From Fructobacillus broussonetiae (lineage in GTDB: Bacteria > Bacillota > Bacilli > Lactobacillales > Lactobacillaceae), in NCBI RefSeq assembly GCF_018437275.1, contig NZ_JAAMFK010000003.1:1-64000 (forward strand): a stretch of DNA of 64,000 nucleotides, read 5' to 3'. The position numbers and the translations under genes are program-made. The notes under the pieces were generated by a model. That model made no database searches. It saw only the letters and a list, made by a program, of their open reading frames with translations, and was not told the DNA's origin. This document shows, one piece after another, positions 10,480 to 59,276 of this stretch; within the stretch, counting starts at the first letter, position 1, and each line of letters starts with the position of its first letter.

Positions 10480-10599
10480 AAAGAAAAGGCCGTGCAGGAC
10501 CAACTGCACGACCTCTAGCAAACCCGTAAAACGGTGGCTAGCCTTCATGATTATGAAATAACCATCAGCTCGCTAAAGCATTGAGATGGTTATTTTTTT
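10480..10599 (+). ncRNA. Orphan structured RNA related to the 58-59 kb RNAs (~120 nt)
   Basis: An extended -10 (TGGTACAAT, 10465-10473) precedes a non-coding stretch with four hairpins. These are GTGCAG/CTGCAC, CTAGC(CCGT-AAA-ACGG)TGGCTAG (10515-10541), TTCAT/ATGAA, and a terminator AATAACCATC/GATGGTTATT with T7 and loop CTCGCTAAAGC. Hairpin order, the CGGTGGC element and the CGCTAAAGC loop match the RNAs at 58344 and 58839. No convergent peptide gene is visible here. Such RNAs resemble antitoxin RNAs of type I systems; function is unproven. Confidence 0.65.
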
Positions 10600-25151: not shown

Positions 25152-25823
25152 ATCAATCTCTCCTGTTTCTTTCTCTCTGTGATTTAACAGTTATAAGAAT
25201 AGCAAGCAGGAGATTTCTGAAGAATAACGAAAAGTCACGGAACGATGATAGAAAGATAACAGCTATATTTCTTACACCAATATGACTTATAAAACAGCTG
25301 ATAAACGTTGGTATTTTTGGATTTCTATGTAAGCAAGAACATCTGTTACATCTGATTAACTAAGTTAACAAGAAGAAAACATTGCCTTTATTCCAGCTAA
25401 ATGCAGGGATTTCTAATAACCAAATTAAAAAATACAGCTTTTTACTAGAACAGAAACCATTCTTCGCTATTTATTACAAAAGTCCGCAACATGTTGCAAA
25501 AAAGCCCGTAAAACGGGCTTTTTCCTTCGATATTGTTATAGTTCTTTACACAGTTGTCCTTCTTCGTTACATCAACAAGCGCTATGTAACCGATCAGGAA
25601 AAGTGCAGCAACATAAGTGCCCTAATCGACGCGAAATCGGGAAATCAATCGACCGAACGGAAGGAGGTAAATATACGAAAAAAAGCGTAATAAGTTGTGG
25701 TTACATTATGATTCCATCTTAAAAACATGACTCACATTCGTTATTTAATGAGTGAAGGCTTTTCTTTTGAAATAAAAAAACAGCTAGCTCCACTGTAAGA
25801 GTTAACCGTTTCCATAACTTTTA
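25152..25823 (+). other. 672-bp intergenic stretch without a supported gene
   Basis: AT-rich. It holds a clear hairpin terminator at 25498-25523 and an isolated strong ribosome-site sequence AAGGAGGTAAAT (25660-25671) that is followed by ATA CGA and a stop five codons on, with no start codon. A minus-strand frame reading ALFLIGYIALVDV (about 25560-25605) looks like a small hydrophobic toxin peptide but has no start codon or ribosome site. The stretch may hold remnants of a decayed small gene. Confidence 0.4.
25498..25523 (-). terminator. Hairpin terminator downstream of the Doc-like locus
   Basis: AAAAAAGCCCGT/ACGGGCTTTTT with AAA loop; works in either direction. The nearest upstream minus-strand gene is the 52-residue frame at 25824. 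Confidence 0.75.
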
Positions 25824-58253: not shown

Positions 58254-58284
58254 AAAAAGTCCGCGCCGAGGGCGCGGGCTTTTT
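58254..58284 (+). terminator. gatD terminator
   Basis: AGTCCGCGCC/GGCGCGGGCT stem with GAG loop and T5. Confidence 0.9.
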
Positions 58285-58287
58285 GCT

Positions 58288-58337
58288 TGTCCTAAACGAC
58301 CTCAATTGTTTGAAAATCTTTTCGGCCGTGGTAAACT
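58288..58337 (+). promoter_or_regulatory. Promoter of unit A RNA with upstream CCTAA box
   Basis: GTCCTAAACGACCT (58289-58302), then TTGAAA (58310-58315), 16 bases, TAAACT (58332-58337) with an extended TG. The same box family recurs upstream of the convergent peptide gene. Confidence 0.65.
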
Positions 58338-58343
58338 ATGTAC

Positions 58344-58458
58344 GAAAAGAGGAGAGTTAATCCTCTTCTCGGATAAAGCCGCCCAAGGCGGTGGCAAGTT
58401 ATAGTGGCGACGGACAACCATCATCACCCGCTAAAGCGAGATGGTTGCCCGTTTTTTT
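58344..58458 (+). ncRNA. Structured RNA of unit A, convergent with the peptide gene
   Basis: About 115 nt. Hairpins: AGAGGA/TCCTCT (58348-58369), GCCGCC-CAA-GGCGGTGGC (58378-58395), and a terminator CAACCATC/GATGGTTG with inner CGCTAAAGCG and T7 (58412-58458). Its terminator lies immediately beyond the stop codon of the 49-residue peptide, so its 3' part is antisense to the 3' UTR of that mRNA, as in TxpA/RatA-type type I systems. No frame with a ribosome site is seen within it. Confidence 0.7.
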
Positions 58459-58606
58459 AGTTCTTGTCGTGCAACGACATTAACTTCTTCATGATCCGTT
58501 CCATCTTAATGGCCAGGTTTCCCAAGCGCACCAAGGTGTCGTACCAATCCCAAAAATCGGGCATGGCGTTCCTTTCAATCGGAATCATGCCCATGAATTT
58601 CTCCAT
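58457..58606 (-). CDS. Amphipathic peptide of unknown function, 49 aa (unit A)
   Basis: Starts MEKFMGMIPIERNAMPDFW. AAAGGAGGTAAG lies 5 bases before the ATG. Residues 18-45 (FWDWYDTLVRLGNLA, then IKMERIMKKLMSL) form a textbook amphipathic helix with hydrophobic residues every 3-4 positions and a net basic end. There is no signal peptide or true membrane segment. The unit B copy differs at six residues, mostly conservative (Y22F, L28W, M35L, E36D, K41M, M43L), suggesting selection at protein level. It may be a membrane-active toxin or regulatory peptide. I know no family. Confidence 0.72.
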   Translation of the reverse strand: MEKFMGMIPIERNAMPDFWDWYDTLVRLGNLAIKMERIMKKLMSLHDKN

Positions 58607-58662
58607 AGGCCTTACCTCCTTTTGTCGGTCAACGCCACCGTCTCGGCTTCTTTATCGCCACC

Positions 58663-58741
58663 ATCATAACGAGTCGTTCAAATAGAACCGACAAAAGAGT
58701 CCAAAAATTGTCGATTAGGTCACGATATTGTCCTAACTGAC
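58663..58741 (-). promoter_or_regulatory. Promoter region of the unit A peptide with inverted CCTAA boxes
   Basis: A TATGAT -10 (58663-58668, minus strand) lacks a clear -35. Upstream, GATTAGGTCA (58713-58722) and TCCTAACTGAC (58731-58741) form an imperfect inverted repeat conserved in unit B, as expected of an activator-dependent promoter. Confidence 0.5.
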
Positions 58742-58748
58742 ACCTATA

Positions 58749-58779
58749 CAAAAAGTCCGCACCTTGGCGCGGGCTTTTT
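58749..58779 (+). terminator. Duplicated terminator at the start of unit B
   Basis: AGTCCGC-CC/GG-GCGGGCT stem, a diverged copy of the gatD terminator. Confidence 0.8.
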
Positions 58780-58782
58780 GCT

Positions 58783-58832
58783 TGTCCTAAACGACCTCAT
58801 TTGTTTGAAAATCTTTTCGGCCGTGGTAAACT
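58783..58832 (+). promoter_or_regulatory. Promoter of unit B RNA with upstream CCTAA box
   Basis: GTCCTAAACGACCT box, TTGAAA (58805-58810), 16 bases, TAAACT (58827-58832); identical to unit A. Confidence 0.65.
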
Positions 58833-58838
58833 ATGTAC

Positions 58839-58953
58839 GAAAAGAGGAGAGCTAACCCTCTTCTCGGATAAAGCCGCCCAAGGCGGTGGCAAGTGATATT
58901 GTTGACGGACAACCATCATCACCCGCTAAAGCGAGATGGTTGCCCGTTTTTTT
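58839..58953 (+). ncRNA. Structured RNA of unit B, convergent with the peptide gene
   Basis: Same three hairpins as unit A. In the first, changes in the loop (GAGAGCTAACCCTC versus GAGAGTTAATCCTC) keep the stem paired. The terminator and CGCTAAAGCG loop are unchanged. It faces the 3' end of the unit B peptide gene. Confidence 0.7.
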
Positions 58954-59101
58954 AGTTCTTGTCGTGCAACGACAGTAACATCTTCATGATTCGATCAAGC
59001 TTAATGGCTAGGTTTCCCCAGCGTACCAAGGTGTCGAACCAATCCCAAAAATCGGGCATGGCGTTCCTTTCAATCGGAATCATACCCATGAATTTCTCCA
59101 T
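58952..59101 (-). CDS. Amphipathic peptide of unknown function, 49 aa (unit B)
   Basis: Paralogue of the unit A peptide with identical residues 1-21 and the same tail LHDKN. The helix reads FWDWFDTLVRWGNLA then IKLDRIMKMLLSL, slightly more hydrophobic and with an extra Trp. AAAGGAGGTAAG precedes the ATG at the same distance. Four synonymous and six amino-acid-changing codons separate the copies. Retention of both frames argues for function. See unit A for possible roles. Confidence 0.72.
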   Translation of the reverse strand: MEKFMGMIPIERNAMPDFWDWFDTLVRWGNLAIKLDRIMKMLLSLHDKN

Positions 59102-59157
59102 AGGCCTTACCTCCTTTTGTCGGTCAACGCCACCGTCTCGGCTTCTTTATCGCCCCC

Positions 59158-59237
59158 ATGATAACGGGTTGGTCAAATCATTTCGCTAAAACAGATGAAA
59201 ACTTGTCGATTAGGTCAAGAAAATGGCCCTAACTGAC
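59158..59237 (-). promoter_or_regulatory. Promoter region of the unit B peptide with inverted CCTAA boxes
   Basis: TATCAT -10 near 59158-59163 (minus strand) with GATTAGGTCA (59208-59217) and CCTAACTGAC (59228-59237) upstream, as in unit A. Confidence 0.5.
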
Positions 59238-59242
59238 ATCCC

Positions 59243-59276
59243 AAAAAAGACCGCAGTCAACACTGCGGTCTTTTTA
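59243..59276 (-). terminator. Terminator of kimA
   Basis: AAAAGACCGCAG/CTGCGGTCTTTT stem, minus-strand T run. Confidence 0.9.

Follow-up and report, generated by a model that had tools for sequence, protein, structure and literature searches.

Two tandem units with an RNA and a convergent reading frame

The window analysed here, the whole stretch of 64,000 nucleotides from Fructobacillus broussonetiae, carries two 495-bp units in tandem, flanked by a GatD-like gene and, at the opposite end, by a gene for an APC-type transporter (both named by eye). The units form an ungapped repeat with a start-to-start spacing of 495. Each is composed of a structured RNA of about 114 nt on the + strand and a convergent 49-aa ORF on the - strand, so that the RNA/peptide pairing described in an earlier note on this DNA is borne out in both copies. 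The RNAs, antitoxin-like RNA 1 (58346..58459, +) and antitoxin-like RNA 2 (58841..58954, +), consist of two hairpins, then a terminator hairpin and a T-run; in RNA 1 the hairpins are located at 58349-58370 and 58378-58395 and the terminator at 58409-58453. This organization in three hairpins, also proposed earlier, is upheld by folding (z = -3.44 and -3.98, with 0/200 shuffles folding as well). The RNAs' own terminator, which has a bulged stem, was not flagged by a simple terminator scan, and the toxin-strand terminator of the window copies, as read from the sequence, has no U-run. As to the promoter that the note placed before each RNA, a promoter-like TTGAAA-16-TAAACT is present upstream of both (58310..58337 and 58805..58832, +), but it is recognized by consensus only and the 2 sites found compare with 1.1 expected.

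On the - strand, the long form (49 aa) of the toxin-like ORF extends over 58457..58606 in unit 1 and 58952..59101 in unit 2. As previously claimed, the ORF has a strong ribosome site (AAGGAGG, 58615..58622, - strand, in unit 1) and ends at the RNA terminator: the stop codon, 58457-58459, overlaps the T-run of RNA 1, a geometry found again at the C8 and canonical loci described below. A second ribosome site and start, GAAAGGAACGCC-ATG, is found 42 nt downstream of the first ribosome site and ATG. In unit 1 its AAAGGA is at 58570-58575, and the internal ATG predicts a short form of 35 aa (58457..58564, -; 58952..59059, -, in unit 2). The 5' part of the putative toxin mRNA contains the element GATAAAGAAGCCGAGACGGTGGC (58629..58657, -, with its equivalent at 59124..59152, -, in unit 2), a same-sense match to the second hairpin of the antitoxin-like RNA.

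The differences between the two copies have a patchy distribution: none of the 44 positions of the terminator differ, 1/28 in the second hairpin and 1/54 in the toxin leader with its ribosome site, compared to an ORF that differs at 11/150 and a presumed toxin promoter that differs at 16/50. A dyad, TTAGGTCA-N6-TGTCCTAA, lies upstream of each presumed toxin promoter, at 58715..58736 in unit 1 and, one base longer, at 59210-59232 in unit 2. The same dyad occurs at G000:C10:62770, and related TTAGGAC sites are present beside terminators elsewhere in the genome. A search for TTAGGWCA-N6-TGTCCTAA with at most 2 mismatches gave 10 rows, versus 3 for the reversed control, and pointed to no clear regulon.

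The RNA family and its relation to RatA

Relatives of the window RNAs were searched with covariance models, as the earlier note had suggested. A first model (R1), built from four RNAs, gave 49 matches in the genus at E<=0.01. Six of them, which by eye resembled plain terminators or fragments, were dropped, which took away the sole match of genome G100; the 43 matches kept are distributed over 12 of the 13 Fructobacillus genomes. A second model (R2), built from 28 sequences, identified relatives at E<=0.01 in 13/13 Fructobacillus genomes and in 178 of 301 Lactobacillaceae genomes, representing 34 of 40 genera. Changes on both sides of a pair are seen in 9 of the 17 pairs of R2 (shuffled mean 5.3; 7/500 shuffles as high) and 89.7% of cells are paired versus 84.5% in shuffles; additional pair types are no more numerous (17) than shuffling yields (18.2). 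The window genome (1.27 Mb) itself holds 12 R2 matches at E<=0.01, and further tandem or degenerate RNA copies were noticed at G000:C8:53208-53282 and G000:C1:251474/251701.

The identity of this family is given by Rfam. Among 15 relative loci submitted, RatA (RF01776) exceeds its 49-bit cut-off in six, all of them in other genera (L148, L155, L157, L158, L164, L166), with up to 96.6 bits, and rli28 (RF01492) exceeds its 45-bit cut-off on the facing strand in 13. A canonical Fructobacillus RNA scores 38.5 bits to RatA, below the cut-off, and its mRNA 70.2 bits to rli28. The window RNAs score lower, 27.4 bits for RNA 1 and 27.8 bits for RNA 2 (E 0.34 and 0.29), and do not reach the gathering cut-off of 49. 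RatA has nonetheless the top bit score of any Rfam family there, at the correct place and strand in both copies, although by E-value several unrelated families rank above it in the window (e.g. Leu_leader, 0.06). The window toxin mRNAs gave no rli28 row at E<=10.

To place the window copies independently of themselves, we used a third model (R3) that contains no window sequence and neither of two other divergent modules, on contig C8 (L005) of the same genome and at C1:86671. R3 gives 93.7 bits to a solo RNA elsewhere in the window, 54.8 to C8, 40.4 to C1:86671, and 25.5 and 25.9 to RNAs 1 and 2. For the window copies this corresponds to E of about 0.002 in 71 kb, where another window match, at 25494, reaches 23.8 bits (E 0.0057), and to E 0.041 and 0.033, respectively, genome-wide, with a C12 match in between (E 0.038). 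The window RNAs are among the most diverged of their genome. The RNA of the C8 module is intermediate, and this module has in common with the window the terminator and a leader 21-mer, AAAGAAGCCGAGACGGYGRCG, which among the 13 genomes of the genus is found with zero mismatches only at the two window units and C8. At 3 mismatches this 21-mer also retrieved L051-L054 in other species; these were rejected as coding sequence because each lies inside a long stop-free stretch (247 to 645 codons). The window copies form the far end of a series, and it is this series together with the common layout that places them, rather than any single score. Since the relatives of these RNAs are Rfam RatA, and the facing mRNAs are rli28 coding for Hol_Tox toxins, homology is the most likely basis of the likeness of the window RNAs to TxpA/RatA. 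The earlier note had seen a resemblance to TxpA/RatA in the 3' overlap; this geometry stands, and most likely more than a resemblance is involved.

The solo RNA is the third copy that the earlier note had placed near 10480. It is real and canonical (10486..10599, +), with 37.1 bits to RatA in addition to its R3 score.

Facing genes, leaders and peptides

We then considered the genes that face these RNAs. A Hol_Tox-like convergent ORF is present near 30 of the 43 kept matches of the genus, a count that is partly circular, the profile having been built from 20 of those toxins, and in which tandem RNAs can share one toxin. Pfam Hol_Tox accepts 4 of 10 submitted peptides (best E 2e-9), one more being sub-threshold. 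In other genera such an ORF is present in 17 of 18 loci, the exception (L166) being an incomplete locus, and in a wider set of best-ranked loci outside the genus at 54 of 69 RNA matches, one of 86 rows having been omitted before this count. The rli28 facing mRNA usually encodes a Hol_Tox toxin of about 34 aa. No Hol_Tox-like ORF was found at the window units, at C8, at C1:86671 or at the F. pseudoficulneus locus G150 C7; C8 and C1:86671 do have convergent ORFs at the equivalent position. Two other members of the genus (G154, G155) have divergent modules, L199 and L200, with GGACAAAG-type antitoxin hairpins; the convergent ORF of L199 is cysteine-rich, and L200 shows no clear toxin.

The canonical modules have a characteristic leader. 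A strong ribosome site is followed by a very short leader ORF, in many cases just Met-Val or five codons, and the toxin has a further site of its own, e.g. AAAGGA. The leader ORF is separate in 60 of the 71 distinct modules and long in 3, in frame with the toxin in two cases, and 8 modules yielded none; the spacing to the second ribosome site and start is 32-53 nt in the 63 canonical modules out of 71 that have a leader ORF. The window leader follows the canonical order, i.e. hairpin, strong ribosome site with ATG, second ribosome site with start, and its first ribosome site is the equivalent of the leader-ORF site. As the leader frame of the window has no stop, it runs into the toxin frame and gives the 49 aa. 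The internal start, predicted to give the 35-aa form, is the equivalent of the canonical toxin start. Two products have a precedent in sprG1, which makes peptides of 44 and 31 aa from one frame (PMC8309996, PMC10579593). As to the tiny leader ORFs of the canonical modules, a minigene is reported for an operon of type II toxin-antitoxin genes (PMC8708949).

Between the two window ORFs, the 11 nucleotide changes lead to 6 replacements (Y22F, L28W, M35L, E36D, K41M, M43L), of which four are conservative. The values of pN and pS are 0.054 and 0.175 (pN/pS 0.31), when the changes are placed at random, replacements are this rare with P = 0.056, and 40% of trials introduce a stop. The count of replacements given in the earlier note is right, but the selection it saw in them reduces to a suggestive, weak pointer to a coding ORF. 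The description of the peptide as amphipathic and devoid of a membrane segment holds: the best 19-residue Kyte-Doolittle mean is 0.41 and 0.67 for the two copies, and the hydrophobic moment 0.57 and 0.61. For the divergent peptides as a group (window, C8, C1:86671, G150 C7), the hydropathy maximum over 19 residues lies between 0.41 and 1.62, whereas four canonical toxins reach 2.58 to 2.86; the C1:74240 peptide is intermediate (1.81). Hydrophobic moments are 0.53 to 0.68 in the divergent peptides and up to 0.59 in one canonical toxin, so that lost hydropathy is what distinguishes the divergent peptides. Further divergent ORFs exist on C3 and C6 of the window genome.

Neither window peptide has a match at E<=10 in Pfam, PF16935 Hol_Tox included, or in NCBIfam, PepG1 included, in agreement with the earlier note, which knew of no described family with this peptide. 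For comparison, a canonical Fructobacillus toxin matches NCBIfam PepG1 with E 1.1e-8 and 34.5 bits, below the equivalog cut-off of 70. In the search of related genomes that the note had called for, the 49-aa query gave matches at E<=1 in 19 of 151 family genomes, of which only the two window copies are credible; the next-best has E 0.044 and 16.7 bits. A peptide pattern search of genome contigs retrieved 289 stretches and confirmed none, the search of plasmids gave nothing, and that of phages gave 10 records (E 0.4-0.9), none credible. The best match of the unit DNA in the 12 other genomes of the genus covers only 18 bases (E 0.058). No description of these peptides was found in the literature, searched mostly outside subscription journals.

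Probable diverged type I modules, rival readings and a matched hairpin

We consider it likely that the locus is a tandem pair of strongly diverged type I toxin-antitoxin modules of the TxpA/RatA type (RatA/rli28, SprG/SprF-like). This reading is based on the anatomy of the units, on RNA homology at the level of the genus and of the family, and on the order and spacing of the leader. The earlier reading was incomplete in that it overlooked the internal ribosome site with its start at 58564, the C8 module, the further modules and the hairpin common to both RNAs. The kind of system is already known; the effector and the leader fusion make the window a variant. TxpA/RatA of Bacillus subtilis (RF01776) has the same convergent genes with a 3' overlap at the antitoxin terminator, and the same RNA organization (hairpin, CCG..CGGUGRC hairpin, terminator), whereas the window RNAs remain below its cut-off, at 27-28 bits, and the peptide has neither Hol_Tox similarity nor a transmembrane segment. 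On Listeria monocytogenes plasmids, according to PMC9484302, an rli28-type mRNA (RF01492) faces RatA as in the present family; the window mRNAs differ by giving no rli28 row and by the fusion of leader ORF and toxin ORF. In Staphylococcus aureus, SprG1/SprF1 (PepG1) also has two lengths in one frame (44/31 aa, compared to a predicted 49/35 aa here), but its peptides carry a transmembrane helix and are hydrophobic; the window peptide has neither trait and no PepG1 match. With Pfam Hol_Tox the window peptides have in common the position in the module, a short form of similar length and a charged C-terminus, in spite of the absence of matches. PMC8309996 describes most type I toxins as hydrophobic peptides of small size that carry a transmembrane helix. 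The Fst/Ldr (par) type I family was also weighed, for its convergent layout, and dropped because the relatives of the RNA are RatA and those of the toxins Hol_Tox.

By this analogy the + strand RNA would be the antitoxin and the convergent mRNA the toxin message, from which two products would probably be made: the upstream ribosome site would yield the 49 aa and the internal one the 35 aa. With transcripts ending at the presumed sites, the 3' overlap of the two RNAs would span the terminator; being on opposite strands, they would be fully complementary there. For RatA/txpA, PMC3531473 reports overlapping 3' ends and degradation of the hybrid by RNase III. On this analogy we infer that the small + strand RNA probably silences the peptide message, and that pairing would block translation and/or recruit RNase III. 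A drop in the antitoxin would then allow the peptide to be made and to exert its toxicity on the membrane as an amphipathic helix. Pairing of the antitoxin 5' part with the first ribosome site was considered as an additional contact. Over 86 modules its mean z is -0.71 (mononucleotide shuffles), and within the genus cognate pairing is better than non-cognate (-28.77 vs -27.08; 1/5000 permutations, n=32). The window copies have z of only -0.55 and -1.11, and for that reason such an antisense action was dropped for them; C1:86671 has +1.28.

A distinct element, common to both RNAs, may bear on recognition. The second hairpin of the antitoxin, GCRAAC-CCG...CGG-UGGC, and the 5' hairpin of the toxin mRNA, GCRAAC-AAGUGAAGAU-GGUGGC, have matching arms in the same sense, and these arms change together from locus to locus, as seen by eye with TAGTGAAC in both RNAs, GGACAAAG with CTGTCC, GCGATG and, in the window, GATAAAG. 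The comparison was made on 91 distinct pairs, the two hairpins being taken by separate patterns; 38 of 146 modules gave no pair by regular expression. Arm identity is 12.3 of 18 versus 9.9 in shuffles for Fructobacillus pairs (n=37) and 11.3 versus 9.8 for pairs outside the genus (n=54), with 0/5000 shuffles as high in each case, the shuffles keeping the relatedness of loci in. The window pairs were mis-assigned by the regular expression (0 in the 5' arm), which lowered the cognate mean. In a filtered set of 70 pairs, identity over the 6 positions of the 5' arm is 5.19 versus 4.01 within the genus (n=26) and 5.77 versus 4.39 outside (n=44), again with 0/5000; the 3' arm stands out inside the genus only (2/5000, compared to 323/5000 outside). 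The matched hairpin may reflect an RNA-RNA contact, a shared partner or homogenization at the DNA level. Gene conversion as its cause is disfavoured because, for all the matching of the arms, each loop remains of its own type, antitoxin or toxin. For RatA/txpA, PMC3531473 puts forward loop-loop contacts as a way in which pairing might begin. The accessible parts of the literature consulted, mostly outside subscription journals, do not mention a matched hairpin for type I modules. This hairpin, which covaries between loci both within Fructobacillus and in other Lactobacillaceae, offers a testable lead on how an antitoxin recognizes its message. A wider proposal, which we put forward tentatively and hold to be rather doubtful, is that the RatA-type antitoxin would be an interchangeable RNA frame in Fructobacillus, that the effector would have been replaced at several loci by amphipathic, non-transmembrane peptides of two lengths, and that the antitoxin would know its own message partly by the matched same-sense hairpin. 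Modules in which the RNA control is kept while the peptide shifts from membrane-spanning to amphipathic form a natural series for testing what causes toxicity, and also whether the antitoxin cares what it silences.

Other readings of the locus were weighed against the type I one. A peptide that is secreted or surface-active, modulin- or bacteriocin-like, with the RatA-type RNA kept as its regulator, would agree with the Trp residues, the high hydrophobic moment and the absence of a transmembrane segment, as well as with the loss of the hydrophobic stretch at other loci of the genus. We find it unlikely: no export, immunity or processing gene is seen adjoining the units, the layout, internal start included, is that of type I toxin modules, and a high moment is not discriminating, as one canonical toxin reaches 0.59. 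Somewhat more improbable is a decay of the modules, in which a toxin inactivated by its lost hydrophobicity would leave an RNA persisting as trans antitoxin for other modules. RNAs with no intact toxin do exist, at 10486 and several times in other species, and the divergence of the window RNAs fits such a course; both frames are nonetheless intact, the leader with its ribosome sites is nearly unchanged (1/54), and pN/pS is 0.31, while 11 changes placed at random would introduce a stop in 40% of cases. That the convergent ORFs arose by chance, the locus being two copies of an sRNA, seems to us very improbable. The ORFs are short and the coding signal between copies (P = 0.056) is not significant alone, but their position, the two ribosome sites and the leader element match the canonical modules (63/71 with a leader ORF), and C8 and C1:86671 have ORFs at the equivalent position.

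The solo RNA at 10486-10599, for which the next 450 bases show no convergent toxin ORF, is possibly an antitoxin acting in trans. It is located upstream of a T-box-like leader (83.2 bits, for a cut-off of 93) and of a lipoprotein gene, named by eye.
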